64,000 nucleotides of DNA from Ariolimax columbianus (Eukaryota; Mollusca; Gastropoda; Stylommatophora; Arionidae), in contig JAVGWX010000012.1 of the NCBI GenBank assembly GCA_036924085.1, positions 32,670,272-32,734,271 on the forward strand, read 5' to 3'. The translations under genes and the position numbers were made by a program. This document shows positions 2,196 through 60,870 of the stretch, piece after piece; positions within the stretch are counted from its first letter, which is position 1, and each line of letters begins with the position of its first letter. The notes below the pieces were generated by a model. That model was not told where the DNA came from. It ran no database searches and saw only the letters and a program-made list of their open reading frames with translations.

Positions 2196-2470
2196 TCAAA
2201 GCAGAAGGCGAGTCACTCGACATTGTCATTGGCGTAAAGCAGAAGGTGAGTTACTCGACATTGTCATTGGCGTAAAGCAGAAGGTGAGTTACTCGACATT
2301 GTCATTGGCGTAAAGCAGAAGGTGAGTTACTCGACATTGTCGTTGGCGTAAAGCAGAAGATGAGTCACTCGACATTGTCATTGGCGTAAAGCAGAAGGTG
2401 AGTTACTCGACATTGTCTGTGGCGTAAAGCAGAAGGTGAGTTACTCGACATTGTCATTGGCGTAAAGCAG
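2196..2470 (+). repeat. 7 x 38-bp array born inside the endonuclease
   Basis: Seven exact-period units (starts 2196, 2234, 2272, 2310, 2348, 2386, 2424). The first unit is the original coding sequence. Near-identical aaagcagaaggcgag and aaagcagaggcgaaa lie at the two edges, so the unit is bounded by short direct repeats already present in the element. A 38-bp unit breaks the frame. Confidence 0.85.
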
Positions 2471-2528
2471 AGGCGAAAGAAGATTTATTTGAGCTGCTTG
2501 AAAAGATCCTTCTTGGAGATCTCACTGC

Positions 2529-3012
2529 TACAATGGGACGTAATCATTCTAGACTGGAAGAGTTTGGTGGATTCGGCGAAAATGTTTTAACTGAGTATGG
2601 AATACGACTCCTGAGATTCTTCAGCGAGCTATAACTGGTTATTACAAATACAAAGTTCCCTTACTGATGCACTGGGACGTAACCATTCTAGACGGGAAGA
2701 GTTTGGTGGATTCGGCGAAAATGTTTTAACTGCGTACGGAATACTAGTGCCAACACTAGACAAACTCTGTGGCAGTGTCTACAGCCTCAGGATGACCACT
2801 GCTTTCTTCGAACAAATTCAAGTTGACGTCTGACAGCGTACGAAGAAGAAGAAGAAGAAGAAGAAGAAGAAGAAGAAGAAGAAGAAGAAGAAGAAGAAGA
2901 AGAAGAAGAAGAAGAAGAAGACGAAGAAGAAGAAGAAGAAGAAGAAGAATACGACTCTTAAGATTCTTCAGCGAGCTATAGCTGGTTATTACAAATACAA
3001 AGTTCCCTCACT
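2529..3012 (+). repeat. 135-bp tandem duplication of endonuclease segment
   Basis: The segment starting gggacgtaatcattctaga and ending ttacaaatacaaagttccct occurs twice in tandem. The second copy is interrupted by the insertion at 2745-2946 and resumes at about 2953. Confidence 0.85.
2745..2946 (+). mobile_element. 5'-truncated RNase H LINE (LINE-C) 3' end with (GAA)n tail
   Basis: About 100 bp matching, in the same sense, the 3' end of the minus-strand LINE at 21.31-22.55 kb (shared text includes caaattcaagttgacgtctg and agcgtacgaagaa), followed by about 30 GAA units. The insertion is flanked by gaatac at 2739-2744 and 2947-2952, consistent with a target-site duplication, although GAA in the tail makes its left edge ambiguous. 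It carries only the last codons and the 3' untranslated end. Confidence 0.8.
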
Positions 3013-3720
3013 GCCGCTGACATACATAGACTTGTGAACAGGCAAGAAATGAGAGAACCATCAATGATTGTGCCATTGTGAGGATATATTCATTGAAGGA
3101 TGTGACAGATGCCAGAGCCTGGGGAGGATCAGAAATAAGAAATCACCACTACCACGTGACAGTGAAAAGAACAACCGAAATACACCAAAACAACGTGGCT
3201 ATTAAGAAAGAAACCGAACATCAGAAAAGGCGAAACAAGAATAAATGTGTACAATCTGAGAGAGCCAGAAGTTAGGACCAGATAGCAGGGGTTTATATCT
3301 AGTGCAGAGGAAACAATCCAAGGATATGAAAACCCTCTGGATCAAATTCATGAATATAATTGAAGGTAGCAACATCAGAAACATGTGAAGTCTGAGTCAA
3401 GAATGATATCAAGAGGACACCCCGGTAAACTGAATTAGTAAAACTGATAATAAGTAATTTTTTTTAATGCATGGAAACAACAATTGAAAGGCAAGAATAC
3501 AACAAGAAAATAATTTAAATATAACGAATTTATAACACATAGAACTGAAGCCAGGAAAACAATGCTAACGGCAAAACCAAAATCATGGGAGGACTTTGGA
3601 GAAGGACTAGTTGAGAATGCAGGAGAAAACCAGACGCCGTTATACAGGACCGTTATAGATATGGGGAAGGAAAAAGAGAGATCGTCCACATTTCTAAAAG
3701 ACAAGCAAGCAGATTTCTAC

Positions 3721-3870
3721 CCTAAGTGAGAGAATGGATACATGAAAAGACTATTTCTCAGAGCTCCTATTTGCGAAGGACGAACACGTCCTATGTACAA
3801 CAGGCTTTCGTAGAGTGGAATCTTACAGAACAAAAATTATGGATTTCTGTCCCAAAAAACAGATTTAGTC
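3721..3870 (+). pseudogene. possible RT palm scrap
   Basis: The translation FSELLFAKDEHVL around 3745-3785 resembles an RT FADD box with the catalytic pair altered. It is too short to classify; it sits between linker remnants and RNase H remnants in the same orientation. Confidence 0.4.
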
Positions 3871-4443: not shown

Positions 4444-5580
4444 TTCAGTTCTACAGTATCATGCCGTGGAACTCACCTTGCAGACACTTTGTGGTTCTGT
4501 AGCAGATCATGGATGATGTGGTGTGCTGAACCTTGACTGATGTCCAAATGTGCTGAACCTTGGCTGATGTCCAGATGTGCTGAACCTTGGTTGATGTCCA
4601 GATGTGCTGAACCTTGACTGATATCCAGATGTGCTGAACCTTGAATGATGTCCAGATGTGCTGAACCTTGACTGATGTCCAGATGTGCTGAACCTTGACT
4701 GATGTCCAGATGTGCTGAAACTTGGCTGATGTTCAGATGTGCTGAACCTTGACTGATGTCCAGATGTGCTGAAACTTGGCTGATGTCAAGATGTGCTGAA
4801 CCTTGACTGATGTCAAGATGTGCTGAACCTTGACTGATGTCCAGATGTGCTGATTTTTGACTGATGTCCAGATGTGCTAAAACTTGGCTGATGTCCAGAT
4901 GTGCTGAACCTTGACTGATGTCCAGATGTGCTGAACCTTGACTGATGTCCAGATGTGCGGAACCTTGACTGATGTCCAGATGTGCTGAAACTTGGCTGAT
5001 GTCCAGATGTGCTGAACCTTGACTGATGTCCAGATGTGCTGAAACTTGGCTGATGTCAAGATGTGCTGAACCTTGACAGATATCCAGATGTGCTGAACCT
5101 TGACTGATGTCAAGATGTGCTGAGCCTTGACTGATGTCCAAATCTGCTGAACCTTGACTGATGTCCAGATGTGCTGAACTTTGACTGATGTCCAGATGTG
5201 CTAAAACCTGGCTGATGTCCAGATGTGCTGAACCTTGACTGATGTCCAGATGTGCTGAACCTTGACTGATGTCCAGATATTCGGCAATTTCCGTCACAAT
5301 CACGCGGTCAACGGCTGCAATCGACTCTGGGGTCACTACTCGGTGTGCTTGACCCGGTCGTGAACAGTCTGTCACAGAACTCACGCCGTTTTGGAACTTC
5401 CTATTTCTCTCATGCCCTTGCTGGAGTGAAAGGCATGCATCACCGTACTAGTACGTCTTTCGCCGATGAGTTTCAAAAATTTCCATCCCTTCGTTGATTA
5501 AAAAAAACACGGATACCAGAACGCTGCTCCTATTGGTACATATAAATAGTGGAGCGACCATTTTTTAATTGCAATTATGA
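4444..5580 (-). mobile_element. Mariner-family transposase, N-terminal part
   Basis: On the minus strand a 303-codon frame (start near 5384) reads SRPGQAHRVVTPESIAAVDR, then VTEIAEY, then a nine-residue unit LDISQGSAH repeated 28 times, then HIIHDLLQNHKVSAR and a TGA where the family has Trp; VPRH follows. This is the second helix-turn-helix of a mariner/Tc1-type transposase (pattern I..IA..L.IS.GS.H.IIH..L...KV.ARWVP). Sequence upstream (5385-5560 read backward) fits the first helix-turn-helix with frameshifts. The DD(D/E) catalytic domain is absent; the element is cut off at the SINE-d boundary. Function in life would be inverted-repeat DNA binding. Confidence 0.85.
4524..5279 (-). repeat. 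28 x 27-bp array encoding LDISQGSAH
   Basis: Exactly 28 units with period 27 and no net indel (729 bp separate the first and last tgctgaac). The unit is nine codons of the surrounding transposase and stays in frame with both flanks. Substitutions cluster at the sixth and seventh residues of the unit (GS, VS, VL, SS, KS). Confidence 0.95.
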
Positions 5581-5584
5581 ATGA

Positions 5585-6189: not shown

Positions 6190-6775
6190 TATTGTTCACC
6201 ATTCCAAGTCATATCATCCCATAATCAGTCATGACTGAAAGGGCTACTGTACTGTACGATAACTTAGCTGTCTGAACGTGATTTCGTTCTTTTGTTCTCT
6301 ATTTATCAATAACTTCGCCAGTTCTAACTTAATTATTAGTTAGTTTTCTACCTGTGTCGTTAAGCGTCGTAGGGAGCTTAAGTCGTCTATCCTGCACCAA
6401 GTGCGTTGCGTAGGTCAATGTGAGCCCTTGTCGCTGCACAATCACTCTAATGTCATCTATCCACCTACCTCGCGGCCACCCCCTTGCCCTGTAGCCAGAT
6501 CTACCAGCGTTGTAAGCCATCAGTGGAAGTTGATGAGGGTGCGTTCTCATGAGATGACCAAACCAACTTATTTTCTGCCTGGAAATGTATTCGACGTAGT
6601 GCTGACCATACTTCGAATGTCGTCGTTTCACATTCTGTCTCTTCTGCTAACACCGATGACCTTCCTCAAAAACTTCATTTCACAAGTCGAAATTCTGTCT
6701 CTTCTGCTATCACCGATGACCTTCCTCAAAAACTTCATTTCACAAGTCGAAATTCTGCTCTTTTAATTATTTTCA
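6190..6775 (-). pseudogene. LINE RT C-terminal region, second family
   Basis: The minus-strand frame 6329-6631 reads ISWFGHLMRTHPHQLPLMAY and GRWIDDIRV, the W.GH.mR and GRp...W.D.I motifs of LINE C-termini. Upstream on the minus strand EMKFLRKVIG is duplicated by a 60-bp tandem repeat. 5' truncated, opposite in orientation to the preceding fragment. Confidence 0.75.
6631..6755 (-). repeat. 60-bp in-frame tandem duplication in LINE
   Basis: Two copies with period exactly 60 (cttcctcaaaaacttcattt at 6661 and 6721), i.e. 20 codons duplicated inside the LINE fragment, with a partial third copy upstream. Confidence 0.85.
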
Positions 6776-6991
6776 AATTAAATGGTGTAGTAATTTGGTT
6801 TTGACAGAGACGACTAAACCCAGTTGCAGCCCTTAAAGCATGTCGTCGTACTATACAACTAACAGTGCAGTAAAACTATTTAGGGTAAAAGACTCTAATG
6901 CCCATCGGTTTGTACAACACATGCGCCCTGTTATTTACACAGACTAAACACTTTGCACGTATCGACCGCCATCTGGCATTGACAGAACGTT

Positions 6992-7420
6992 ATAAAAGAC
7001 ATTCCCCAAGTGTTTTACAAGACGTGGAGCAAAGAGTAGTCACGGTCAGGTGAAGCACTGACGTAATAAAAGACATTATTCTCTAAGTGTTTTACAAGAC
7101 GTGGAGCAAAAAGTAGTCAGGGTCAGGTGAAGCACTGACCAATGGCCTATCGCACGCTATTGTTCAGGCTCCTGAAAACAGACAGTGGCCCAAGATTCTG
7201 ACCAACGACGACCGACATTGTAATGCCCATGCTTGTGAACTTACTGAGGAGCCTCTAAATGGCGCTACATCCAGGAGGATGGTCCATCTTCTGAAGAACA
7301 CTTTGGGATGTAAGAAGAGCTACTGTAACCCGCTAAAAAAGACACGTCATCAAAAATTAACTCAATTCAGCAAGATTGCCCTCGAACAACAGTAGCAGAA
7401 ATAATAACAACATATTATGC
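6992..7420 (+). mobile_element. rep-P copy D
   Basis: A 74-bp direct duplication (6992-7139) carries the rep-P text gtcaggtgaagcactgac twice. The body follows (gtgaacttactgaggagcct, gctactgtaacccgct) and then a CAA/AAC-rich end at 7383-7412. Only remnants of the 38-bp array are present. Confidence 0.65.
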
Positions 7421-8441: not shown

Positions 8442-9434
8442 GACAACTTGAACTTGGCAGCTCCATCATGACAACTGGAACTTGGCAGCTCCATCATGAC
8501 AACTTGGCAGCTCCATCATGACAACTTGGCAGCTCCATCATGACAACTTGGCAGTTCCATCATGACAACTTGGCAGCTCCATCATGACAACTTGGCAGCC
8601 CCATCATGACAACTGGAACTTGGCAGCTCCATCATGACAACTGGAACTTGGCAGCTCCATCATGACAACTGAAACTAACTGCTCCATCATGACAACTTGG
8701 CAGCTCCATCATGACAACTTGGTAGCTCCATCATGCCAACTTAGCAGCTCCATCATGACAACTGGAACATGACAGCTCCATTATGACAACTTGGCAGCTC
8801 CATCATGACAACTTGGCAGCTCCATCATGACAACTTGGCAGCTCCACCATAACAACTGGAACTTGGCAGCTCCATCATGACAACTTGGCAGCTCCATCAT
8901 GACAACTTGGCAGCTCCACCATGACAACTGGAACTTGGCAGCTCTATCATGACAACTTGGCAGCTCCATCATGACAACTGGAACATGACAGCTACATCGT
9001 GATAACTTGGCAGCTCCATCATGACAAATTGGCAGCTCCATCATGACAACTGGGCCATGACAGCTACATCGTGACAACTTGGCAGCTCCATCATGACAAC
9101 TTGGCAGCTCCATCATGACAACTGGAACTTGGCAGTTCCATCATGACAACTGGAACATGACAGCTACATCATGAAAACTGGAATTTGGCAGCTACATCAT
9201 GACAACTGGAACATGACAGCTACATCATGACAACTTAGAAGCTCCATCATGACAACTGGAACATGACAGTTACATCATGACAACTTGGCAGCTCCATCAT
9301 GACAACTGGAATTTGGCAGCTACATCCTGACAACTGGAATTTGGCAGCTACATCATGACAACTTGGCAGCTACATCATGACAACTTGGCAGCTCCATCAT
9401 GACAACTGGAACATGACAGCTACATCATGACAAC
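8442..9434 (+). repeat. 22/29-bp minisatellite of the HHDN catalytic segment
   Basis: About 40 units built on ggcagctccatcatgacaac, in two lengths (with or without an extra ggaact). In the mariner frame this text encodes WQLHHDN, the segment holding a catalytic Asp. The hexamer gacaac is present at both outer edges, in the position expected for the parent gene. Confidence 0.9.
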
Positions 9435-10084: not shown

Positions 10085-10970
10085 GGGAAGCGTTAGCTCA
10101 GTTCATAGCGAGCAATTCGGTATTTTCTGTGGTAACAGCGTGAATCGGTTCATAGCGAGCAATTCGGTATTTTCTGTGGTAACAGCGTGAATCGGTTCAT
10201 AGCGAGCAATTCGGTATTTTCTGTGGTAACAGCGTGAATCGGTTCATAGCGAGCAATTCGGTATTTTCTGTGGTAACAGCGTGAATCGGTTCATAGCGAG
10301 CAATTCGGTATTTTCTGTAGTAACAGCGTGAATCGGTTCATAGCGAGCAATTAGGTATTTTCTGTGGTAACAGCGTGAATCGGTTCATAGCGAGCAATTC
10401 GGTATTTTCTGTGGTAACAGCCTGAATCGGTTCATAGCGAGCAATTCGGTATTTTCTGTGGTAACAGCGTGAATCGGTTCATAGCGAGCAATTCGGTATT
10501 TTCTGTAGTAACAGCGTGAATCGGTTCATAGCGAGAAGTTCGGTATTTTCTGTGGTAACAGTGTGAATCGGTTCATAGCGAGCAATTCGGTATTTTCTGT
10601 GGGAACAGTGTGAATCGGTTCATAGCGAGCAATTCGGTATTTTCTGTGGTAACAGTGTGAATCGGTTCATAGCGAGAAGTTCGGTATTTTCTGTGGTAAC
10701 AGTGTGAATCGGCTCATTGCGAGCAATTCGGTATTTTCTGTGGTAACAGTGTGCCTTGGTTCGCAACTAGGTGAAGACTAAAAAAATCCGGGTCGTGATT
10801 TTAATCGGGGACTGCTTCTCCAGTTAACCCAGCTGTAAAAGGGTACCTGACGCATCAGGGAAAGTAAAAACAGCAGGGAAGGGCACTGGCCACCCCACCT
10901 CCCATAGACCACGGTTTAGTACAATGGAGTCTTCAAAAACGTCATTTCAAACATGCGGTTAGGGCAGATG
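10085..10970 (+). mobile_element. SINE-c, tRNA-derived, with expanded head
   Basis: It begins gaagcgttagctcagttc (A box at 10095), continues into a 14-unit array, and then shows the B-box-like cttggttcgcaac at 10756 and a body with atccgggtcgtgatttt, gggtacctgacgcatcag and gtacaatggagtcttc. The unexpanded copy at 48245-48505 (minus strand) has A box, about 47 bp, B box, then the same body, so this copy is a single SINE whose A-to-B interval was amplified in place. Confidence 0.85.
10101..10758 (+). repeat. 14 x 47-bp array inside the SINE-c tRNA head
   Basis: 658 bp = 14 x 47 exactly, with no indels. The unit runs from gttcatagcgag to gcgtgaatcg. Each junction reads cggttcatagcg, a hybrid of the B box (cggttcg) and the A-box flank (cagttcatagcg). 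Confidence 0.95.
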
Positions 10971-11330
10971 AGATTAACGTCTGGTCAGGCAGAACACACT
11001 GATCAGAGAATGTAAGCCAGGGCCAGGAGAAAAGCCCTGGCCAAGACCCTCACCTGACCTCCTCGTTGATCGTCCTACAAACGGGCTGTTGTCGGGGACA
11101 ACAATCTGGATAACAGGGTGAGGTTCGATGTGATCTCCGTAGTAGTGAGCTACACGCAGATAAAGCCAAGCATAGCACTACCGCCTGGAGGACCCCGGTC
11201 CACCTTCATAAACACTCTCGAGACATGGGGAAAGCTACTGCAACCCGCCACTTAACTTTTTAGGGCGCACATAAGACTAACCTACTCATTGTGGCCATTC
11301 GAAACAACAACTACAAACCAGCGGTTAATT
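10971..11330 (+). mobile_element. rep-P copy B
   Basis: About 1.5 units of the 38-bp motif (gtcaggcagaacacactgat, gtaagccagggccagg), then the body (gatctccgtagtagtgagct, gcatagcactaccgcctgga) and an end in gaaacaacaactacaaacca. It follows SINE-c directly. Confidence 0.75.
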
Positions 11331-11620: not shown

Positions 11621-11624
11621 CTGG

Positions 11625-13391: not shown

Positions 13392-15160
13392 ATGGTTAGC
13401 GAAATAGGCATAGAACTGGCGAGAAATGGAACTGGCAATCCTTCCTCGCACAATTTTTGGCTTAGTACACACCTTACAGAAGGCAGAGTGGATAACTGCT
13501 CCTCAATTATTGAACACAATCTGGGAAGAAACGATGCCAAAAGGGCATATCAAATAATCAAGGACGAAGTAAAGCCTATACAAGGTCGGAATACAACGAT
13601 TCAGGATAAGAAAGAGAATTGTCTCACAGAAGCCCAAAACAATCGAGCTCGTTGGACAGAGTACGGCTCCTAATTATATAATCATGAGGGTCGAGGTGAC
13701 CTAGGAAATGCAATCGCCCCGGAAATGAAAATGTTAGAGGAGAATCAACCGATAATAAGAGCGGAAGTAACTGAACCGGCAAAGATGTTAAAAAAAAGGG
13801 GGAAATCTGTGGGTGTGGATACTATCACAGCAGATCTCATACAACTGGGGGGCTCTGACATACATCTGTTCAACGATCTAGACGAAATCAGTGGTTTTAC
13901 CGCTACCTAAATCAGGGGACCTCAAGTTGTGTCAGAACTTTAGAGCAATTTGCTTCATTAGTCATCCTAGCAAAGTTCTCTTAAGAATAATCCTCAACAG
14001 ATTAAAACCACAGGCAGGGAATTTAATTGCCGAAGAGCAAGCCGGGTTTCGAGCGGGAAGAAGCACCACTGAACATATATTCAATCTGCGGATATTGAAT
14101 GAGAAATACTTAGAGTATCAACAACACATATCTCATGTCTTCATTGATTTTAAAAAGGCGTTCGACAAAGTATGGCATGCGGCGCTATGGACAACAATGA
14201 AATATTACAAGATCAATAGTAATATTGTGAACGTAATTGAGAACCTTTATGAGAAGGCGTCAAGTACAGTTTATGTAGATAGAATACTAGGCGAATGGTT
14301 CCGCGCGTCTGTTGGGGTGAGACAAGGCTGTATACTCTCTCCAAAGCTCTTCAATGAATTTTTGGATAGAATAATGGAGGCGGCCCTGGAGGGACATGTT
14401 GGTACGATCAGAATAGGTGACAAGACGATTACAAACCTACGATTTGCAGATGATATAGATGGCCTGGTAGGCATGGCAACGGATCTACAGGAGCTGATTG
14501 GTAGATTGGATAGAGAGGTGCAGAGCTATGGCACGGAGATAAATGCAGAGAAAAAAAACTGATGACTAATAACACGAAAGGGTTTACATCTGGGATAAAT
14601 GGAAACGGTCAGTAACTCGAAGTTGTGCACCGGTTCAAGTATCTGGGATCACTGATCAGTGACGAGGGATCGCAGCCTGAGATAATTACCAGAATAGCAC
14701 AGACAACAACGGTGTTTACGAGTTTGAAACCCATATGTGAGACGTGGACCATTACTGCGGATATCCAGGGCAGAATGCATGCAATGGAAATGAGGTGCTT
14801 TAAAAGACTCCTAAATGTTACAGATAAGGATCGTGTCACGAACGTAGAAATACGACGAAGAGTGAAAAACGGAATTTGGCCTTTTGATGATCTGTTCAAA
14901 ACTATTAAAAGGCAAATTATGGCTTAGTATGGGCACGTTAGAGGTCCAGCGGAATTGCAAATTCGATCCTGCGTGGTTCCGTACCGGGAATGAGAGGACG
15001 GGGACATCCAAGGAAGAGATGGACAGAGAACATCACTGAGGGGTCAGACCTTCGTCCTGGAGAGGCAAGACTGGCGGCAGCGGACAGAGAGAGATGGCGT
15101 GGGATTTGTGGGAGTGTCTTCAAGTGTGTCCCAATGACCTGATGAACTGAACTGAACATT
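13392..15160 (+). mobile_element. LINE-A: non-LTR retrotransposon, linker to 3' end
   Basis: Linker remnants (NDAKRAYQIIKDEVKPIQGR; KMLKKRGKSVGVDTITADLI) lead into a 223-codon RT frame, then a thumb segment (HRFKYLGSLISDEGSQPEII, then CETWTITADIQGRMHAMEMR) and a C-terminus in two frames (YGHVRG; RGHPRKRWTENITEGSDLRP; ADRERWRGICGSVF). The text jumps from LKPI to CETW, where relatives have about 40 more residues, so there is an internal deletion. The 3' end is tgaactgaactgaac, a pentamer-type tail. The endonuclease is missing. It would have encoded the enzyme for target-primed reverse transcription. Confidence 0.9.
13891..14562 (+). pseudogene. RT domain of LINE-A
   Basis: The 223-codon frame reads LCQNFRAICFISHPSKVLLR, EEQAGFRAGRSTTEHIFNLR, HVFIDFKKAFDKVWH (first catalytic Asp), VGVRQGCILSPKLFNEFLDR and LRFADDIDGLVG, with the FADD catalytic pair at 14443-14454. 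All RT core blocks from fingers to palm are present and uninterrupted. It starts inside the frame of its own linker by a shift near 13890 and ends at a stop after INAEKKN, where relatives continue, so it is the best-preserved RT core on the plus strand but not a complete gene. Confidence 0.9.
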
Positions 15161-18194: not shown

Positions 18195-18720
18195 GACTTT
18201 AATACATCATCATCATCATCATCATGTGACATCGCTCTTGTCCCAGCCCGCTTGAAAGAAACTCAATCTCTTGCTAAATCTCCAGCCGGTTCCAGAGTCA
18301 TGTCAAGCATTTCTTGACATCTTGATGCCATCACCTTCTTGATCTGCATGAGCGTCTCTTGCCCGGCACCATCCCCTCCATTACCGTTCTATCAAGCCCG
18401 TTGTGTTTATTATGTAGCTTAAGTATTTAAATTTGTTGTTCATGACGGAATTTATGAAACAGCTCTCTACTATGTCCGACTTTTTCCAATGTCTATATTT
18501 TTTTTTCTCCATCCCATTGTATTCTGACTACCTTTCTATAAGATTTCGACTAGAATGACTGGGTTCTTTTTCTTCAAGTTTGGGTAACTGTCTACGTTTC
18601 ACAGTCGTATTCTTCCAAGGGAAAAACGCAGGTTCTCAAAATTTTCACTTTTGTTGATTTGATGGTATTCTGCCATGGTTTCCATAGGTTGTGTAGCCTC
18701 TGCATTACCATAATAATAAT
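18195..18720 (-). mobile_element. LINE-B C-terminal fragment
   Basis: Reading the minus strand, the text matches the 3' region of the LINE at 45.7-47.9 kb (shared phrases such as ggcaagagacgctcatgcag-like C-terminal coding, and aaaattttgagaacctgcgt). It ends in (ATG)n at 18207-18227, the tail type of this family. Heavily mutated. Confidence 0.65.
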
Positions 18721-18800
18721 AATGGTAATAATAATAATGGCAATAATAACAATGGTAATAAGAATAATGGTAATAATAACAATGGTAATAAGAATAAGAA
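18708..18800 (+). repeat. AAT/GGTAAT microsatellite
   Basis: Interrupted (AAT)n with ggtaataataataatgg motifs. Confidence 0.85.
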
Positions 18801-19025
18801 TAAAATATTTAAAATACATGTAATTAAAAATGTAAATAAAATGTAATTATTCAGCTACCGCCCACCTGAGAAGCTAAACTCGCCTACTAGGTCAAGATTG
18901 ACGAGCACTGATCCAGATGGAGAATATCGGATTTTGTGGATCGGTTATTAATCTCAACTCCTGGACCGAGTTAGGTGGGGAGGGTGAGGATGGGGGAACA
19001 GAGTATATATCCATTGTTTAGACTC

Positions 19026-35955: not shown

Positions 35956-36129
35956 ATGGGAGGGATGACCAGCTAATCAAGGACGAAAGGAATATGCGGG
36001 ATGAAGGAAGAAGGAGCGATGTACCGAGGGTAAGTGCAGGTAGAGGATGGGGAATTCTGCATGAGCTCAAGAGCCGTTGCAACTTCTGGACACGAGTGCA
36101 CACAGATCGGACACAACGAGCAGAAAATT

Positions 36130-36800: not shown

Positions 36801-37084
36801 CGCAGTCGCGAGGGCTCTTTCGTGAACCTTAACGGGTTAGAAGCATAGTATAGCACCAGTTGTTTCAAGAAAAAGAGGATGAGGAAGAGGTGATAGGGAT
36901 ATGGATAGATAAAGGCGAGTAGAGACTGATGGAGGAAGAGATGGGCAGGTTGAAGAGGGGGAAGACATTGGCGGATTGAAGTAGAGACGAAAATGTTGGG
37001 TTTGATCGCTGAGAGAAGTGCATTGTGGGTGTGATGGGTGAGACAGGGTTAACAAAATAAACAACTTTCATAGTTATGTTGAGA
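36801..37084. other. no feature recognised
   Basis: G/A-rich sequence before the array. Confidence 0.4.
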
Positions 37085-38622
37085 AGTAGAAAAGGTTGGA
37101 TGAGTTGCCGGGGAGAGATTGTCGGGTTGAGGAGGATTTGTGGACGGATGGATGGATGAGTTGAGTGGAGAGAGGGTCGGGCTGAGAAGTAGATAAGGAT
37201 GGATGAGTTGCCGGGGAGAGATGGTCGGGTTGAGGAGGATATATAGACGGGTGGATGGATGAGGGGAGAGATGGTCGGGTTGAGGAGGATTTGTAGACGG
37301 ATGGATGGATGAGTTGAGGGGAGAGATGGTCGAGTTGAGGAGGAGATATGGACGGATGAGTTGCCGGGGAGAGATGGTTGGGTTGAGGAGGATTTGTGGA
37401 CGGATGGATGGATGAGTTGAGGAGAGAGATGATCGGGTTGAGGAGGAGATATGGACGGATGGATGGATGAGGGGAGAGGTGGTCAGTTTGAGGAGGAAAT
37501 ATGGACGGATGGATGGATGAGTTGAGGGGAGAGATGATCGGGTTGAGGAGGAGATATGGACCGATGGATGGATGAGGGGAGAGGTGGTCGGTTTGAGGAG
37601 GAAATATGGACGGATGGATGGATGAGTTGAGGGGAGAGATGGTCGGGTTGAGGAGGAGATATGGACGGATGAGTTGCCGGGGAGAGATGGTCGGGTTCAG
37701 GAGGATTTGTGGACGGATGGATTGATGAGTTGAGGGGAGAGATGGTCGGGTTGAGGAGGAGATATGGACGGATGGATGGATGAGTTGAGGGGAGAGATGG
37801 TAGGGTTATGGAGGAGATATGGACGGATGAGTTGCCGGGGAGAGATGGTAGGGTTGAGGAGGAGATATGGACGGATGGATGGATGAGTTGAGGGGAGAGA
37901 TGGTCGGGTTGAGGATGAGATATGGACGGATGGATGGATGAGGGGAGAGATGGTCGGGTTGAGGAGGAGATATGGACTGATTGATGGATGAGTTGAGGGG
38001 AGAGATGGTAGGGTTATGGAGGAGATATGGACGGATGAGTTGCCGGGGAGAGATGGTAGGGTTGAGGAGGAGATATGGACGGATGGATGGATGAGTTGAG
38101 GGGAGAGATGGTCGGGTTGAGGATGAGATATGGACGGATGGATGGATGAGGGGAGAGATGGTCGGGTTGAGGAGGAGATATGGACGGATGGATGGATGAG
38201 GGGAGAGATGGTCGGGTTGAGGAGGAGATATGGACTGATTGATGGATGAGTTGAGGGGAGAGATGGTCAGGTTGAGGAGGAGATATGGATGGATGAGGGG
38301 AGAGATGGTCGGTTTGAGGAGGAGATATGGACGGATGGATGGATGAGGGGAGAGATGGTCGGTTTGAGGAGGAGATATGGACGGATGGATGGATGAGGAG
38401 AGAGATGGTCGGTTTGAGGAGGAGATATGGACGGAAGGATGGATGAGGGGAGAGATGTTCGGGTTGAGGAGGAGATATGGACGGATGGATGGATGAGTTG
38501 AGGGGAGAGATGGTCGGGTTGAGGAGGAGATATGGACGGATGGATGGATGAGGGGAGAGATGGTCGGTTTGAGGAGGAGATATAGACGGATGGATGGATG
38601 AGTTGAAGGAGAGAGAAGTACG
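37085..38622 (+). repeat. 48/50/55-bp minisatellite
   Basis: About 30 units of the form ggacggatggatggatga + (gttga) + ggggagagatggtcgggttg + aggaggagatat. Three length classes differ by the optional gttga and by replacement with gttgccg. The minus-strand frames of 231-420 codons (Pro/Ser/His-rich) are repeat translation. Confidence 0.93.
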
Positions 38623-38689
38623 GTCCGAACATCGTTGAGCACCTGGAACTAAGATATATACTGATCGGCGGTATCTTATGGGTGTGTTG

Positions 38690-39655
38690 TATTCTGGAGT
38701 GTGTTGCATTCTGGAGTGTGTTGTATTCTGGAGTGTGTTGTAGTTGGATTCTGGAGTGTGTAGTAGTTGGATTCTGGAGTGTGTTGAAGTTGGATTCTGG
38801 AGTGTTGTAGTAGTTGCAATATGGAGTGTGTTGTAGTTGGATTCTGGAGTGTGTAGTAGTTGTATTCTGGAGTGGTGTAGTTGGATTCTGGAGTGTTGTA
38901 GTAAATTGGATTCTGGAGTGTGTAGTAGTTGGATTCTGGAGTGTTGTAGTAGTTGGATTCTGGAGTGTGTAGTAGTTGGATTCTGGAGTGTTGTAGTTGG
39001 ATTCTGGAGTGTGTAGTAGTTGGATTCTGGAGTGTTGTAGTAGTTGGATTCTGGAGTGGTGTAGTTGGATTCTGGAGTGTTGTAGTAGTTGGATTCTGGA
39101 GTGTGTAGTAGTTGGATTCTGGAGTGTTGTAGTAGTTGGATTCTGGAGTGTGTAGTAGTTGGATTCTGGAGTGTTGTAGTTGGATTCTGGAGTGTGTAGT
39201 AGTTGGATTCTGGAGTGTTGTAGTAGTTGGATTCTGGAGTGTGTAGTAGTTGGATTCTGGAGTGGTGTAGTTGGATTCTGGAGTGTTGTAGTAGTTGGAT
39301 TCTGGAGTGTTGTAGTAGTTGGATTCTGGGGTGGTGTAGTTGGATTCTGGAGTGTTGTAGTAGTTTGATTCTGGAGTGGTGTAATTGGATTCTGGAGTGT
39401 TGTAGTAGTTGGATTCTGGAGTGTGTAGTAGTTGGATTCTGGAGTGTTGTAGTAGTTGGATTCTGGAGTGTTGCAGTTGAATTCTGGAGTGTGTTGAAGT
39501 TGGATTCTGGAGTGTTGTAGTAGTTGCAATATGGAGTGTGTTGTAGTTGGATTCTGGAGTGTGTTGTAGTTGGATTCTGGAGTGTGTTGTAGTTGGATTC
39601 TGGAGTGTGTTGTAGTTGTATTCTGGAGTGTGTTGTAGTTGTATTCTGTTTAAGG
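38690..39655 (+). repeat. 22-26-bp minisatellite
   Basis: About 40 units of gttggattctggagtgt plus gtag/tgtagta spacers of variable length. Continuous with the previous array after about 70 bp of unique sequence. Confidence 0.93.
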
Positions 39656-39660
39656 GCTTG

Positions 39661-39845
39661 AAGTGAGACGTGTTGTTGAAGTGGGACGTGTTGTTGAAGT
39701 GGGACGTGTTGTTAAAGTGGGACGTGTTGTTGAAGTGGGACGTGTTGTTGAAGTGGGACGTGTTGTGGAAGTGGGACGTGTTGTTGAAGTGGGACGTGTT
39801 GTTGAAGTGGGACGTGTTGTTGAAGTGGGACGTGTTGAGGTCTTA
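39661..39845 (+). repeat. 18-bp repeat, 10 units
   Basis: gtgggacgtgttgttgaa, period exactly 18, encoding VEVGRV; abuts the previous array. Confidence 0.95.
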
Positions 39846-41095
39846 GCTAAAGCTGCTCCGATCCCTACTTGTGAGTTATTGATGATATTGGATTGGGGCT
39901 CACCAAATGTCTGTGGACCGTCCTCCCTGTGTTTCCCATAGCTTCAATTGGTAAAGGGTTGTTTGTTTGTTGCACAATCCTAACTGACCATATTTGGATC
40001 ACGTCGTACTCAATTTTAGCCGACCCGGTATGTTGGGGGCTTTTTCATGGTATAACCGCTTTTTCTAGTCAACCCAGTCTGTGTACAGTCAGGTGAAAAT
40101 TTCGAGGCACCGCAGAAGCTACAGAGTCTGTGCTCTGACGTCGACAATTTCAGCGATGAAGGGACTGAGTACAAGTAAGATGCCCATGGTACAATGAAGT
40201 CAGTTCTGTAAGCAATTTTCTGGGTTTTTTTTATAACCTATCTGCTTGATCACGTGTCTTTGTTGACTGTTCTTATGAGCTGTTTAGCGGTTTGAAGAGA
40301 TGTTAATGGATGTGGCTGTTCTTGGCTTGGTCCTTTCATAATATGGTGATCAGGTGAAAGGCGCATCATTGGTTAACGTCTTAGCTTTCTCACAGGTGGG
40401 GATGACGTGTTTCCTGCCTGGTGGCCTTGCTGTCCACCCTAACTGTAGGATAGATAGCCATTGATATAATTATCCGTCCAGACAAGGACCGCCAGCTCCC
40501 TTCTTCGTCTCCCTGTCTTGCCCATTATCTGATAACCAGATTTACATTTTGAGCTGGGGTAGATTAGAGCTTGTCCAGATCAGGGTTTGAGCTCTGCTCT
40601 TTGTCATGTCTTTACATTTTAAATTTTCAATCACCCCGATAACTTCTTATAATGATACAGAGCTGATTTATGGGCTGAAACCATTACCATACATATATTT
40701 GGAAGTTTCTCACTAACAACTATTCCTGAATTTATACGAGTAATGTACTTATTCTTTCTAACAGGAGTTTCACATTTAAAAAGTAATAATAAAAGTGTCC
40801 AAAAGTTAGTGAATGGGTTAAGCTGTTTGATATCTCCATTCAGGGTGTTATTAATGGAGGGCGTTTGCGATAGTAGTTGATTCCGCAATTTTGAAAATTA
40901 ATTGGTAATCTAGAAGATGGTGTTTGGCTGTTTCCAGTTGTTCGTTGCACTGCTTGTGGTGTCGTGTATGATATTCGGTGACTCGGTGTATTTATTTGTT
41001 CAGTGGCACTTGTTTTGTTCGCAAAAATGAAAATTGTACGTTGGTCACTCCAACTCAAATTGCTGATGCTAGTTTTGAGATTGGGTAGAGACATT
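39846..41095. other. no gene recognised
   Basis: Short frames only. Minus-strand frames at 40631-41094 have no motif that I recognise. Confidence 0.4.
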
Positions 41096-44879: not shown

Positions 44880-45715
44880 ACTTAACTTAACGACTGTATA
44901 CTAGTTTAGAAGACTCCGTAGAGTTTGTATAATTAACTTGCCGTCTTTATTCTAGTTTAGAAGACTGTGCAGATCCACTTAACGTCTTCATGCTGGTATA
45001 GAAGACTTTGCAAAGTCTGTATACAAAAAGTTTCTTTTACATTCACTTGATATAAAAATAACTATTTGCATCCAATATATTATTGAATGCATTAATTGAC
45101 CCTGCCACCCCAATTTTCTGGTATAATGCATTCCAAGCATTCACCATTCTCTGACTTAACAAATATTTCTTTAAATCTAAAATGAACCTTTCTTTAATCA
45201 ATTTGTGATTGTGCCCTCTTGTTTTTGTAGACAGCTGAATTTTGAAGGAAAAAAACTTGTTATGGTCTATTGTATCCTTTTCGTTATCTTATAAACCTGT
45301 GTTAAGTCACCTCTAATTCTTCTCTTTTCTTGACACAGTAGGCCGGTTTTTCCTAGTCTTTCCTCATACCTATAATTTTGGAATCCCACTATCAGCTTTG
45401 TCGCTTTACATCCTTTCCGGCATGTTCAAACCCGCTCTACGAACTCCACACCTGTACACAGGACTCCAATCTGGGGATCTAGCTAATGCTTTTTACAATT
45501 TTAATATCAGTTCCATGCTTTTATGTTTAATATTTTTTTATCATACCTAACATTTCATTTCCGTTTTTCACTGCTACCTGAACTTCCTCACTCACTGCTA
45601 CCTGAACTTCGCACTGCTACCTGGGCTTGCTCACTCACTGCTACCTGGACTTGCTCACTCACTGCTACCTGACTTGCTCACTCACTGCTACCTGGACTTG
45701 CTCACCCACCTTATG
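44880..45715 (-). mobile_element. LINE-D (CR1-like) 3' part
   Basis: Matches 55.1-55.8 kb: aaaaatatttcttt, gtgccctcttgtttttgta, cctgtgttaagtcacctcta, ggaatcccactatcagcttt. The final ~45 bp of the element is present about three times in tandem at 44885-45010. Near the 5' edge a 24-bp repeat has expanded. 5' truncated; ends against LINE-B. Confidence 0.8.
45570..45708 (-). repeat. 24-bp array inside LINE-D coding sequence
   Basis: About six units of ttgctcactcactgctacct + ggac, with two small deletions. On the minus strand it encodes SEQVQVAV repeated between KVGEQV and VKNGNEMLGM; the unexpanded copy at 55.7 kb reads KVSEQVKVAVKKANAMLGM. Confidence 0.88.
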
Positions 45716-47945
45716 GTATACATCATCATGTAGCATGTCCTTTGTAGAACGTCGCTCCCATCACAGTCTGTCTGAAAGAAACTCGTTCCCTTACCAAAAC
45801 ACCAGCCTACGCCACTGTCATACTCAGGCATTCCAGGACATCTTGGTGCCATCGTCTTCTTGGTCTACCCCTTCCTCTTTTGCCTGGCACCATACCTTGC
45901 ATCACCGTTCTCTCAAGACCGTTGTGTCTCTTATGTGACCAAAGTATTTGCATTTTCTAGCCAAAATGGAATTGATAAACCAGTTCTCCTCTATGCTCAA
46001 CTCTTGCCGAATGTCTACATTTGTTCTTTTCTCTGTCCAGGGTATTCTGAGGATCTTTCTGTAACATTTTGACTCGAAGGATTCGATTCCTTGTATAGAA
46101 GTTTTGGAAATCGTCCATGCTTCACAGCCATAAGCTGCCACAGGAAAAACACAGGCTCTCAAGACTTTTACTTTCATCGTTTTGTTGATGCCCTGCCATA
46201 ATTTACTTCAGGCTGTTCAGTCTCTGCATTGCCATAGCTAGTCTTCTTCTGATTTCTTTCAAGCAGTCACCATTTTTGTCAATTCTGGAGCCCAGATATT
46301 CAAAATTTGTGACCTGATCTTTTTCCTCACCACCCACTGTGAATTTATGCTGACATTGTGTTTTATCGGTGGTCATTATCTTTGTTTTGTTTATGTTTAT
46401 GAACAGATTTTGATCTTTACTATGTCCATTAACGACAGAAGGTAGCTGCTCTAGCCCTTCTGCACTTCTTGATAGTATCACTGTGTCATCTGCGTATCGT
46501 AACTCTGGAATCTCGTACCCCCCAATCGTAAATGGGTCGAAACTTTCAATGTTCTCATCTTCTCGAACATTTCTCATTATACATTCCGCATATATGTTGT
46601 ACAGATAAGGTGAGAGCATAAATCCCTGTCGGACTCCCGTTTGTACTGCAAACCAATCTGATGTTTGCCCATATACTCGGACAGTGGCTTGTTGATCTTG
46701 GTACAATGTTTCAATGAGATGGACTATATGCAAAGAAAACCCAATTTCCTTCATGATTCTCCACAGATTTTGATGTTTTACCGTGTTGAAGGCCTTAGTG
46801 TAATCAATCAAACATGTGTACAGGTCTACATTAAACTCTCTACATTTTTCATAGATATTACTTAAATTGAATATGTGGTCCCGGGTCCCTCTGTCTTTCC
46901 TAAAGCCTGCCTGGACTACGTGAATTTCAGATTCAAATCTTTTCTCTATCCTTCTTAATAGGATTCGCAAAAGTATCTTGCTAGCGTGGCTGATCAGCGC
47001 GATAGTTCGGTAGTTCGTGCACAGCTTCTGGTTGCCTTTTTGGGGGAGGGGAATATAAATTGATTCATTCCATGCTTCTGGCCACTCTGCACTGTGCCAT
47101 ATCTGTTTACACAGCTTGTGATAGACTCGAGCACATGCCTCTCCTCCTGCTTGTATTAGCTCTGCTGGGATATCATCGCATCCTGGAGACTTTCCCTTTT
47201 TCAGGCTTTAAATTACATAGCGTACTTCTTCCAATGTTGGTTCAGGTTCTTTCTCATCCTTTGGTAGGATTGTAACTGAGCGCTTTGTGCTATCTCCATA
47301 CATGGTTCTGCAGTATTCTCTCCATCTATGCAGTATGTCTTTGGTTTCTGTTAATGTGTTATCCTCTTTGTCATTTATGACATGTTGAACAGGACGGAAT
47401 TCCCTTGTCAGTGTTCTTATTACATTGAATGCATCCCTCTCTCTGCCTTGTTGTTGTAGGTTTTCTATATCCTTACATGTTTCTACTATGTATCTTCTTT
47501 TATCTTTTCTTATTTCTCTTCTAATTTTTTTTGCGCAGCTTTTACATGCTGTGTTGGTCCCCTTACTTCCCATTTGTTTTAATTGTTGCCTTTCTGCAAT
47601 GATTTTCTGTGTTTCCTCTGTTATATAGCTCTGTGTCTTGTGCAATATCTTTGGAATCATTTCTTTTGATGTCGAGATCAAAATTTCCCTTGCGTACGAT
47701 GTCAACTCCTCAGATATTATCTCTTCCTGTACAGCAAGCAACGCCTCAAATTTGTTTTCTACTTTGATGTTGTATTCAGTAGGTATTGCTGATACATCGA
47801 ACCGTATTGGCTGGCAACCTTTGTTGATCCTACGTAGTCTTGTTTGGAAAACTGCAAACATTAATTCATGGTCCGTATCGCAGTCTGCTCCTGGCAGCGT
47901 TTTTGTCGCCAGCACATTTGATGGTATACAATCAATAACCAAACA
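45715..47945 (-). mobile_element. LINE-B: best-preserved non-LTR retrotransposon copy
   Basis: Read on the minus strand: C-terminal endonuclease (LPGADCDTDHELMFAVFQTR), linker (EETQKIIAERQQLKQMG; NVIRTLTREFRPVQHV), SLKKGKSPGCDDIPAELIQA, NYRTIALISHASKILLRILL, QAGFRKDRGTRDHIFNLSNI, TCLIDYTKAFNTVKH, QTGVRQGFMLSPYLYNIYAE, LRYADDTVILS (YADD at 46482-46496), GSRIDKNGDCLKEI, AYGCEAWTISKT and a C-terminus GKRGRGRPRRRWHQDVLECL. From 48005 to 46203 the frame is open except for one TAA at 47208-47210; a one-base frameshift near 46200 leads into the C-terminal frame. The 5' end is lost at a GAA/poly-purine tract (47940-47990). The tail is an ATG-type repeat near 45715-45730. Confidence 0.92.
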
Positions 47946-47992: not shown

Positions 47993-48244
47993 AATCAAAC
48001 TTCAAAATATAAGAAGATAGTGATCATCTGTTATGTATGCTCGCCATCACCGCGTGGTTTAGAAATATGGAGCGATGAGAACAATAACAAGAGTTTTAAG
48101 GAAAGAATTGAGACCTTGATATATGGATACATAGAAGAATGTGGTGTCATTTATTGACAGAAAAACAAACATGAAAGTCTTAGAGAAATCTAGAATACAC
48201 AGAGAGTTAAAGTAAACTCAAGTGGAAATTCAGCAGAATTATCC

Positions 48245-48505
48245 GCTGATTGGAAATGGAGTTTTTGAAGAAGACTCCATTGTACTTAGCCGTAGCCTGT
48301 GAGAGGTGTCCTTCCTTGCTGTTTTTACTTTCCCTAACTCATGCGTCAGGTACCCATTTACGGCTGGATTTACTGGAGAAGTGGTCCCCAATGAAAATCA
48401 CGACCCGGATTTTTGTTAGTTTCCGGACGGGGTTCGAACCGAGGCACGCAGCTACCACAGAAAATATCGAGTTTCTCGCTATGAACTGAGCTAGCGCCCC
48501 TCCAC
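48245..48505 (-). mobile_element. SINE-c, unexpanded full-length copy
   Basis: On the minus strand: ggcgctagctcagttcatag (A box), cctcggttcgaaccccg (B box), atccgggtcgtgattttcat, gggtacctgacgcatgag, gtacaatggagtcttcttca. About 260 bp. It gives the ancestral single-unit arrangement for the array at 10.1 kb. Confidence 0.9.
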
Positions 48506-55114: not shown

Positions 55115-56142
55115 TTACACTTAACTTAACTTAACTTAACTTAACGTCTTTATACTGGTTTAGAAGACCCTGCAGAGTCTGTATACAACCAGTTACATTT
55201 ACATCACCTTGCTCTAAAAGCTATGCGTATCCAGTTTATTCTTAAATGCATTAACTGTCCCTGCCTCCACTACCTCCCCTGGCAATGCATTCCAAGCAGA
55301 CACCACTCTCTGACTAAAAAAATATTTCCTAATATCTAACCTGGACCTCTCTTTAGTCAACTTGTAGCTATGCCCTCGTGTTATTGTAGGTGGCTGTATT
55401 TTAAAAAAACTTGTTATAGTCTAATTTATCGATTCCTCTGATCATCTTATAAACCTGTATTAAGTCACCACGAATTCTTCTCTCTTCGAGACACTGTAGG
55501 GCGGTTTTTCTGAGTCGTTCCTCATAACTGTAATTCTGGAATCCCACTATCATCTTTGTCGCTCTTTTTTGTATTTTTTCTAGCATGTTTATGTCCCCTC
55601 TATGATAAGGACTCCACACCTGTACACAGTACTCCAATCTAGGTCTAACTAAAGCTTTATACAGTTTGACGATCACTTCCTTGCTCCTATGTTTAATATT
55701 TCTTTGTATCATACCTAACATTGCATTTGCCTTTTTCACTGCTACCTTTACTTGCTCACTCACCTTTCCTGTATGATCTATTATAACCCCTAGGTCCCTT
55801 TCCTTATCTATCTTTCTAATATTGTTTTCTCCCATTCTGTAATTATGTTCCATATTGGATCTACCCATGTGGATGACTACATTTATCTACATTAAACTCC
55901 ATTTGCCAGCTTACAGACCATTCTCGAATTTTATCTAAATCCGACATCAATATATCCACTTCCGCTTTAGATGAGACACTACTGCATAGTTTTGTGTCAT
56001 CAGCAAATTTTGCAATCATGGATCTCATATCAATGTCCAAATCATCTATATATATCAAGAACAAAATTCGTCCCAAAACCGAGCCCTGTGGCACACCACT
56101 TTTCACTTCACTCCACTCAGAATACTCCTTATTTATGCCCAT
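55115..56142 (-). mobile_element. LINE-D (CR1/jockey-like) non-LTR retrotransposon, RT palm to 3' end
   Basis: Minus strand: SEVKSGVPQGSVLGRILFLI, YIDDLD, IAKFADDTKLCSSV (catalytic FADD), ADVDILMSDLDKIREWS-type text, then a 155-codon frame RKIDKERDLGVIIDHTGKVS, KVAVKKANAMLGMIQRNIKH, LYKALVRPRLEYCVQVWSPY, MLEKIQKRATKMIVGF and IRGDLIQVYKMIRGIDKLD. The 3' end is a (TTAAG)n-type tail at 55115-55135. One frame break lies near 55865. This is the CR1/jockey-type RT with the VPQGSVLGPLLF block, distinct from the RQGC-type LINEs elsewhere in the window. 5' truncated. Confidence 0.92.
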
Positions 56143-57332: not shown

Positions 57333-57337
<5 letters not shown>

Positions 57338-57411
<74 letters not shown>

Positions 57412-57412
57412 C
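57338..57412 (+). repeat. (TA)n microsatellite
   Basis: About 36 TA units. Confidence 0.95.
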
Positions 57413-57499
57413 GTTAGAAGTGGATTTTGGCAGTTTGACAGTACAATTTAAAACTTCCCGTCAATATCCTTAAAATTTTGTTTTCGTACGACAGGTGGC

Positions 57500-58030: not shown

Positions 58031-58062
58031 TTTTTTTTTTTTAAATTATCTGTCATGGTTTT

Positions 58063-59165
58063 CAATCCAAGTATTTCTGTCGTGGGCCATCTGTGTCAGC
58101 TCAATCTAAGCCTTCCTGTAGTGTGCCATCTGAGCCATTTCAATTCAAGTATTTCTGTCGTGGGCCATCTGTGTCAGCTCAATCTAAGCCTTCCTGTAGT
58201 GTGCCATCTGAGCCATTTCAATCCAAGTATTTCTGTCGTGGGCCATCTGTGTCAGCTCAATCTAAGCCTTCCTGTAGTGTGCCATCTGAGCCATTTCAAT
58301 CCAAGTATTTCTGTCGTGGGCCATCTGTGTCAGCTCAATCTAAGCCTTCCTGTAGTGTGCCATCTGAGCCATTTCAATCCAAGTATTTCTGTCGTGGGCC
58401 ATCTGTGTCAGCTCAATCTAAGCCTTCCTGTAGTGTGCCATCTGAGCCATTTCAATCCAAGTATTTCTGTCGTGGGCCATCTGTGTCAGCTCAATCTAAG
58501 CCTTCCTGTAGTGTGCCATCTGAGCCATTTCAATCCAAGTATTTCTGTCGTGGGCCATCTGTGTCAGCTCAATCTAAGCCTTCCTGTAGTGTGCCATCTG
58601 AGCCATTTCAATCCAAGTATTTCTGTCGTGGGCCATCTGTGTCAGCTCAATCTAAGCCTTCCTGTAGTGTGCCATCTGAGCCATTTCAATTCAAGTATTT
58701 CTGTCGTGGGCCATCTGTGTCAGCTCAATCTAAGCCTTCCTGTAGTGTGCCATCTGAGCCATTTCAATCCAAGTATTTCTGTCGTGGGCCATCTGTGTCA
58801 GCTCAATCTAAGCCTTCCTGTAGTGTGCCATCTGAGCCATTTCAATTCAAGTGTTCCTGTCGCGGGCCATATGTGCCATCTCAATCCGTCTTTCTGTTTT
58901 TTGTCAACCGTGCCACCTCAATTTGTCTTCCTATCGCGGGTCAAATGTGCCACCTCAATCCAAGTCTTCCTGTCGCGGGCCATATGTGCCCCCTCAATCC
59001 AAATCTTCTTGTCGCGGGCCATCTGTGCCACCTCAATCCAAGTATTCCTGTCGCGGGCCAAATGTGCCACCTCAATCCAAGTCTTCCTGTCGCGGGCCGT
59101 CTGTGCCAGTTCAAACCAAGTCTTCCTGTCGTGGGCCATCTGTGATAGCTCAATCTACGTCTTCA
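58063..59165 (+). repeat. 78-bp higher-order repeat (10 units) plus 39-bp monomers
   Basis: Ten nearly identical 78-bp units (58063 to 58842, no indels), each of two 39-bp halves: caagtatttctgtcgtgggc-type and ctaagccttcctgtagtgtg-type. From 58843 to 59165 about eight diverged 39-bp monomers follow (two of 37 bp). Because 39 is a multiple of 3, frames of 423 and 350 codons stay open; they are not genes. Confidence 0.96.
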
Positions 59166-59430
59166 CAATTTCTTCTATATTTGTCTCAAGATCTTTGCAC
59201 AACGAATGAGTAGGGTTGCCTCTACTTCTCTTATGTCTGGGGGTACCCGAACAGAGACTGCCTTGCAATGTTCTCAACTGGTTTCCTGAATGTAGGACCT
59301 ACCCAAGATCAACACCTCATCTTCACACACTGTTACGTTGTGATCTGTCCGACTCCGTATCACAGTCCCATATTAGTGATCGTATCGATCCATTTCAATC
59401 ACTCCATCCTGTGCAAAAGAGCCAACAGCA
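59166..59430. other. no feature recognised
   Basis: Unique-looking sequence between the satellite and LINE-E. Confidence 0.4.
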
Positions 59431-60870
59431 ATAACATTTGGAAAGAAGAAAGCAGAAAATAAAACAAAAATGGGTAACATCTGAAATACTAAACAAAATG
59501 GAGGTAAGACGCTATTTGGAGAACAGTCACATAGAGCATGACATTGCTAAGTTTAGGTGCATTAAGAATGAATTAGATCAAGAAGGTAGATTTGAACGAG
59601 AAAAAAGGTGGATAGACTGATGCGAGTACATTGAAGAGCTGAAGAAAGCAGGGAAATTTGATCCGGTCATTAAAAAAGTAAAAACAATCATGTAGTAACA
59701 ATAATGCGTTCAATCACGGATAATTAATTATAAAAATTGGAAACCATTAACAGATCCAGACAGAAATAAAGAGAGTTGGAGATGAAATGTTATGGTGCTG
59801 TATGAAGACCGGGGTACGGATATGTTATGGGACTGTATGTATACCGTGGTACGGATATGTTATGGGACTGTATGTAGACCGGGGTACGGATATGTTATTG
59901 GACTGAATGTAGACCGGGGTACGGATATGTTATGGGACTGTATGAAGACGGGGGCACGTATCAAGATACCATACCATTAAATGGCATGACTTTGATAGAA
60001 GAGAGATTACTTGTAACCGGAGAAGAAGCTCGTCAGATATTTTCTCAAACAACAAATCACTATAGATAGATGAGTTACCTATTGAACTACTCAAATCAAC
60101 GGGGAAGACTTTACAAAATTTTGTTTTTCAAACAAGTAAATAAATTTACAACAATGGAACGTTGGCAAAAGATCACACAGTTAAAATAATAATCCTTTTG
60201 TCAAAGACAACGAATGCAATAGAATGCGGTCAATTCCGAACGACAAGTTTACATAACATATACATCTAAAATTTATTGAAGATAATTAAGAAAAGAATCG
60301 ATGACAAGACAGAGGTAATGCTAAAAGATAGTCAGTTTTGGTTTCGTAAGACCAGGGGTATACATGAGGTCCGCGGATCATTGCGACCTCGCAGAAAGAA
60401 GAATGAACGATCAAGGACGACCACCCATTTATCTGCTTTATTGACTACGAGAAAGCCTTTGATCAAGACCCCCTGATACAAACTTTTCCCAGATTTTGCA
60501 ACAACTAGATATGGAGAGATTCATGATGATAAATCAAGAATCAATTATTTCAATCAAAGAAAGACTAACAGATCCAGTTCGAATAAGTACGACAGTCCTA
60601 CTTGCTTTCACCGAGTCTCTATTACGCATATTCTGAAATGATGATAGAAAATGTTGTTCAGAGTTGTAATAGGGGTGTCAAAGTCATTGGCATGAAAGTT
60701 AATGCTATCAAATGTGTCGATAACCAAGCCATAGTGGAAGGATCAACATACAGTAGCAACGTTGCCAATGCTGCTTGAACAAATTAACAGCACAGCCAAA
60801 GAGCTTGGCATGAAAACAAAACGCATTGAAGATAAAGATTACGGTAATAGTCAAACAGCAGAAAGAAAAC
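59430..60870 (+). mobile_element. LINE-E copy 1: linker and RT remnants
   Basis: Linker-like Lys/Glu-rich text with a 35-bp repeat, then LLKIIKKRIDDKTEVMLKDS, FRKTRGIHEVRGSLR, ICFIDYEKAFDQD (first catalytic Asp, frame-shifted), MMIENVVQSCNRGVKVIGMK and IKCVDNQAIVEGST (FADD box lost to CVDN), KELGMKTKRIEDKDYG. Many stops. Directly followed in the same orientation by a second copy. Confidence 0.75.
59782..59960 (+). repeat. 35-bp repeat in LINE-E linker, 5 units
   Basis: atgttatgg at 59787, 59822, 59857, 59892 and 59927, period exactly 35. The first unit encodes VLYEDRGTDM, resembling the LYED.RG linker motif also seen as MLYEDSRGAK in LINE-E copy 2. Confidence 0.9.

Follow-up and report, generated by a model that had tools for sequence, protein, structure and literature searches.

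We analysed a 64,000-bp stretch of the genome of Ariolimax columbianus (GenBank assembly GCA_036924085.1, contig JAVGWX010000012.1, positions 32,670,272 to 32,734,271 of the forward strand; hereafter the window), in which eight tandem arrays, named below by their first position, lie in or next to relics of transposable elements (TEs): long interspersed nuclear elements (LINEs), a short interspersed nuclear element (SINE) and mariner-like sequences (Table 1). An earlier reading, made from the sequence only, had proposed that minisatellites were repeatedly born inside such elements. Two of the arrays, 10101 (in the SINE) and 45568 (in a LINE relic), were indeed born in place, as array-free copies of both stretches are found in the same window, and short direct repeats at the array junctions suggest how such arrays may start.

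Tandem arrays and the elements that host them

Tandem Repeats Finder (TRF) recovered all eight named arrays with scores of 182-1262 and with ends no more than 9 bases off the coordinates given earlier, whereas dinucleotide shuffling of the window produced no array at all in 18 of 20 runs, and the best shuffled score was 54. The 38 arrays listed from TRF occupy 16,746 of the 64,000 bases, or 26% of the window. With tandem units of 10-100 bp, all eight are minisatellites by unit length. None of the units recurred outside copies of its own element, as the units of a satellite family would, when the window was compared with itself (blastn, E 1e-5; matches more than 3 kb apart and at least 60 bp long, or beyond 13 kb and at least 30 bp long). 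The sequence-only reading thus described real arrays, and its view that each unit is a part of the element around it was supported by a sequence test for four of them (10101 in the SINE, 45568 in a LINE, 30261 in a LINE reverse transcriptase and 8442 in a mariner) and by weaker evidence or a motif resemblance for three more (2198, 4522 and 6632), leaving 59787 as the array whose unit was not traced to a TE. It placed the element on both sides of the array in at least seven places; this holds for about four of the eight (10101 by test; 8442 by test on the right and by a motif on the left; 2198 and 4522 by motifs), and at 6632, 30261 and 45568 the element was seen on one side only.

The head of the SINE that hosts the 10101 array is presumably tRNA-like, its A and B boxes having been read by eye from the consensus; ARAGORN found no intact tRNA within the window, Rfam at gathering scores gave no match there, and a 21-mer of the SINE had no matches in viral contigs. 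A second dispersed copy of this SINE (48209-48497) is free of the array. It aligns with the left flank and first unit of the array over 62 bp at 87% identity, and with the last unit and right flank over 180 bp at 82%, or over 248 bp at 77% in a longer alignment. The array units are 96% identical to one another (TRF), whereas the two SINE copies match at 77-82% in their right part, a difference that fits the birth of the array after insertion of the SINE.

A comparable pair was found for the LINE relic at 44977-45595, which matches 55139-55763 at 78%. The array-free copy passes uninterrupted through the point where the 45568 array begins; on the right side, the alignment stops at 45712, 3 bases past the array, and another repeat follows from 45718-45721. 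The 30261 array comes directly after LINE reverse transcriptase sequence (29968-30240), and two homologues of this protein, P0121 and P0122 (65% and 67% identity), contain the KTEVMYQPAPG stretch in a single copy; downstream of the array no LINE sequence was found. The array-free state is therefore documented by in-window copies for 10101 and 45568 and by two protein homologues for 30261. These cases bear out the proposed birth of arrays in place within unrelated elements, and the situation that would speak against it, an array already present in all copies of its TE, does not apply to these three.

The remaining LINE-like hosts were characterised less directly. Each unit of the 6632 duplication corresponds to 20 residues, and the duplication sits at the amino edge of a LINE C-terminal tail; the scores of its comparison with five in-window LINE tails were reached by 0, 1, 35, 207 and 772 of 1000 shuffles. 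The relic around the 2198 array is one that we take to be a LINE endonuclease from a motif; Pfam, PDB and homologue searches gave no endonuclease match to support this, the homologue search confirming 0 of 56 candidates. The reverse transcriptase sequence that follows the 59787 array (59985-60386) was matched by 15 of 122 proteins at E 1e-3.

Among the mariner-like hosts, the sequence on the right side of the 8442 array aligns with the Mos1 mariner transposase over 45 residues without gaps (E 6e-4 for the whole sequence), the alignment beginning at HHDN on the right edge of the array. This relic had no Pfam match, and its left flank we take to be mariner from a motif. The array comprises about 39 units, the 22-bp variant corresponding to the 28-bp unit minus 6. 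In the 4522 array, 28 units run in frame in a helix-turn-helix (HTH). With the array collapsed, Pfam gave only a generic HTH below the cut-off (E 0.008), and no match to Mos1 was obtained; hence the mariner label of this relic is a putative one, given by motif resemblance. HTH_5 and HTH_DeoR passed the Pfam cut-off on the protein with the array left in, where the repeat inflates such scores, and Pfam matches such as DUF6470 on the array protein were taken as repeat artefacts. Searches for this relic in bacterial and archaeal genomes and viral contigs confirmed none among 320 stretches and then none among 38.

Table 1 Arrays, host elements and array-free copies in the window. RT, reverse transcriptase; ORF, open reading frame.
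Feature	Position	Strand	Basis
38-bp array of 13-14 units, third copy of retroposon family; 3' part 687-788; cut by window edge	1-544	+	TRF, self-alignment
38-bp x 7 array in LINE-endonuclease-like relic; directly after it AAAGCAGA, which repeats the first 8 bp of the unit	2198-2471	+	TRF; element by motif only
27-bp x 28 array in HTH of mariner-like transposase relic; ORF 5447-4476	4522-5277 (TRF to 5278)	-	TRF; mariner by motif resemblance
60-bp x 2 duplication at 5' edge of LINE C-terminal tail; tail 6646-6332	6632-6757 (TRF 6632-6762)	-	TRF, tail comparison
22/28-bp array in mariner transposase at HHDN motif; GACAAC on both sides of the 28-bp unit	8442-9434 (TRF 8451-9434, 22/50 bp)	+	TRF, Mos1 match
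SINE hosting the 10101 array	~10090-10951, resumes at 11316	+	Window self-alignment
47-bp x 14 array in tRNA-like head of SINE	10101-10758 (TRF 10101-10753)	+	TRF, in-window copy
Retroposon inserted in the 10101 SINE; CAA-type tail; begins within 38-bp repeat	10962-11311 (ends approximate)	+	By eye
33-bp array, unit KTEVMYQPAPG, just past FADD motif of LINE RT	30261-30388 (TRF 30261-30386)	+	TRF, protein homologues
38-bp array of 18 units, second copy of retroposon family; 3' part 33994-33857	34091-34778	-	TRF, self-alignment
24/20-bp array in LINE relic	45568-45709	-	TRF, in-window LINE copy
Array-free copy of the 10101 SINE; GTTC twice, 47 bp apart	48209-48497	-	Window self-alignment
Array-free copy of the 45568 LINE stretch; TCAC 24 bp apart, TCACT 20 bp apart	55639-55763	-	Window self-alignment
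35-bp x 5 array, 23 bp before LINE RT sequence	59787-59961 (TRF 59787-59958)		TRF; unit not traced to LINE

Short direct repeats at the array junctions

If an array starts by duplication between two chance copies of a word, the ancestor should hold that word twice, at a distance of one unit. Overlaps of this kind were determined for seven of the eight named arrays, the values being taken by hand from script output, and a direct repeat of 4-8 bp was found at five of the seven junctions: 8 bp at 2198 (AAAGCAGA), 6 bp at 6632 (ATTCTG), 6 bp at 8442 (GACAAC at 28 bp) and, on the array-free copies, 4 bp at 10101 (GTTC) and 4 bp at 45568 (TCAC at 24 bp; alternatively TCACT at 20 bp). In four of these five cases the spacing of the repeat equals the TRF period, and at 8442 it equals the 28-bp unit. 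The overlaps add up to 29 over the seven junctions. In 20,000 draws of random junctions with matching periods, placed in the parts of the window that are free of arrays, the sum averaged 5.1 and never went above 19; a single random junction had an overlap of at least 4 bp in 2.1% of cases. Three more arrays, kept out of the sum, gave 4 bp (29361), 3 bp (16328) and 2 bp (56597), and the other arrays were left out because their edges are worn. As a separate observation, the stretch at 29361-29448 is a perfect 2 x 42-bp duplication with the 4-bp overlap GAAC and has the look of an array that began very recently.

From these results, a mechanism may be proposed with reasonable confidence (a probability of roughly 0.78): the arrays are ordinary minisatellites begun after insertion of the element, by tandem duplication of approximately 20-60 bp between short direct repeats one unit apart. 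Such repeats would happen by chance to lie at this distance inside the inserted element, the duplication between them would start the array, and once the repeats had become longer, slippage or unequal exchange between them could add further units. The suggestion of the sequence-only reading that slippage or break repair acts at short direct repeats thus agrees with the junctions as far as the repeats are concerned; as to the enzymatic route, replication slippage, unequal exchange and microhomology-mediated break repair would leave results that are indistinguishable here.

Several points weigh against birth by duplication after insertion. Two of the seven junctions are without a direct repeat (1 bp at 4522 and 0 bp at 59787), and the right boundary of 30261 is lost, so that no junction could be measured there. 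At 10101 the overlap falls from 4 bp to 1 bp when it is read on the last array unit, although the sum obtained with this less favourable value, 26, is still above the null maximum. In addition, 13 of the 14 units of this array end in AATCG or a similar sequence at the place where the SINE copy has CCTCG, and high identity among units can also arise from late homogenisation.

Possible inheritance of arrays, placement in transposable elements and other explanations

Alternatively, the arrays might have travelled as parts of the elements, in which case they would be inherited and not born in place. One family in the window can be read in this way. At four places (1-788, 6987-7353, approximately 10962-11311 on the forward strand and 34778-33857 on the reverse strand) a common 3' part follows the same 38-bp repeat, the other three copies being 71-77% identical to the 34-kb copy in this part, and a CAA-type tail was read by eye. 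The copy at 10962 sits in the SINE and is bounded by a 13-bp target-site repeat whose two copies agree imperfectly, at 11 of 13 positions by eye, and the SINE counterpart at 48 kb is uninterrupted. Between the two long arrays of this family the unit identity is 74%, close to the 75% and 79% within them. However, 27 of the 32 units of these two arrays have their closest relative in their own array, which points to local growth as well, and the 38-bp units recognised before the 3' part number 14 at 1-788 and 18 at 34778-33857, but only 2 weak ones at 6987 and 1 at 10962. We read this as a retroposon family that probably carries an old 38-bp array, altered further in its copies, and on this reading TEs in the window would be sources of arrays as well as their carriers. 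SVA-type retroposons have an internal variable number of tandem repeats, and the 38-bp family resembles them in being a short retroposon whose array varies in length while the 3' part is conserved; the likeness is one of layout and concerns only four diverged copies. For the named arrays, inheritance is unlikely in view of the array-free in-window copies of the 10101 SINE and the 45568 LINE and the two array-free homologues of 30261.

Another possibility is that TEs actively promote the birth of arrays, through nicking, reverse-transcription jumps or target-site repeats, and that arrays are enriched in them for this reason. The 60-bp duplication at 6632 is in line with it, as it sits at the truncated 5' edge of a LINE in the manner of the partial duplications at Alu 5' ends described in PMC3389668. 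The placement of the arrays does not favour it, though the test is a weak one. Recognised sequence was marked by self-similarity (blastn and tblastx) and by LINE proteins (tblastn), together 32% of the non-array sequence, and 27 minisatellites were counted, microsatellites, other short-period arrays and the arrays at 1-544, 856-1171, 1305-1335 and 18710-18849 having been left out beforehand. Recognised sequence lay near 5, 6, 10 and 8 of the 27 at distances of 50, 100, 200 and 300 bp, below the random-placement means of 9.6, 10.4, 12.1 and 12.8 (lower tail 0.045, 0.058, 0.28 and 0.048). A laxer mark-up (51%), which kept 18710-18849 and admitted short hits through tblastx sum statistics, likewise gave 7, 14 and 17 of 28 against 16.1, 18.1 and 19.1 expected at 30, 100 and 200 bp. 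We consequently rejected the expectation of an excess of array starts inside TEs over random placement. The weakness of the test is that masking shortens hits beside arrays, the library is without mariner proteins and several TE relics recognised by eye stay unmarked; although the lower tail is about 0.05 at three of the four distances, under-counting beside arrays and the missing mariner library lead us to read the counts as no enrichment and not as avoidance. Active promotion by TEs is accordingly quite unlikely, and we infer that TEs are the part of the genome in which the ancestor of an array stays readable, rather than the cause of arrays.

That the arrays are artefacts of assembly is very improbable. 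Nothing in the sequence points that way: laid out unit by unit, the eight arrays consist mostly of units that differ by point changes, with the near-identical two-unit cases as exceptions, and two array-free copies reveal the source of the unit. A broader proposal, which goes beyond birth by duplication after insertion, is that this genome, given the 26% share of tandem arrays in the window, makes minisatellites unusually fast from any sequence, usually from a direct repeat of 4-8 bp. We regard it as possible but doubtful; if true, datable TE insertions could be used as clocks for the birth rate and for the requirement for a direct repeat.

Some other repeats of the window are recorded here for completeness. 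A (GAA)36 run at 2842-2949 adjoins the 3' end of a LINE. This 3' end is found again at 21429-21307, and the match enters the GAA run by approximately 24 bp; beside the second occurrence TRF listed no array. Three adjoining G-rich minisatellites with units of 50/55, 23/47 and 18 bp occupy 37097-39837 and are strongly asymmetric between the strands, the GC skew being 0.62 over 36001-40000. For the LINE reverse transcriptase at 13882-14559, the 120 listed of 4,510 matches include 3 from sea slugs (Elysia, Plakobranchus) at 58-62% identity and 5 filed under the bacterium Thiolapillus sp., which, at a guess, are probably animal contamination of a symbiont assembly.

Comparison with known systems

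Minisatellites derived from TEs are well documented, and the window illustrates this known process well and clearly at a local scale; novelty would lie in a rate of minisatellite birth for the whole genome. To our knowledge, the origins of minisatellites are seldom seen with the states before and after side by side. Here, array-free sister copies of two arrays lie at distances of approximately 38 kb and 10 kb, and a direct repeat that fits the unit length is present at five junctions. Should the same hold throughout the genome, TE copies would constitute a large set of natural experiments on how a tandem repeat starts.

According to the model of Haber and Louis (1998), as given in PMC6947457 and PMC3389668, the future unit is a motif with short direct repeats of 5-10 bp on its flanks. 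The junction overlaps fit this model, with the differences that some of them are 4 bp long and that two junctions are without any. Ahmed and Liang (2012, PMC3389668) report that 7,276 of 31,472 human minisatellites overlap or resemble TEs, and that 300 of the 7,276 have direct repeats of 5-20 bp on their flanks. The arrays of the window are similar in that the units are pieces of the local TE, arise by local duplication and in some cases have flanking direct repeats. Set against the 300 of 7,276 human cases with 5-20 bp repeats, five of the seven junctions here have at least 4 bp and four of the seven at least 5 bp (with the 20-bp spacing at 45568), in a tiny sample and by criteria that are not identical. 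The human study leaves the origin open for 6,817 of the 7,276 cases, and the majority of the unexplained ones have two units, whereas the arrays of the window reach 28 (4522) to about 39 (8442) units. More TE-derived tandem repeats have been described in long terminal repeat elements, Alu, B1 and others (PMC6947457, PMC9659126). The 10101 array can be compared with the SINE-derived satellites of squamate reptiles, which occur at many loci per genome and in some cases reach up to 1000 units (Vassetzky et al. 2023, PMC10702118): in both, part of a SINE is repeated in tandem and the SINE continues at an end of the array, but in the window, unlike in squamates, there is one such locus, with 14 units.

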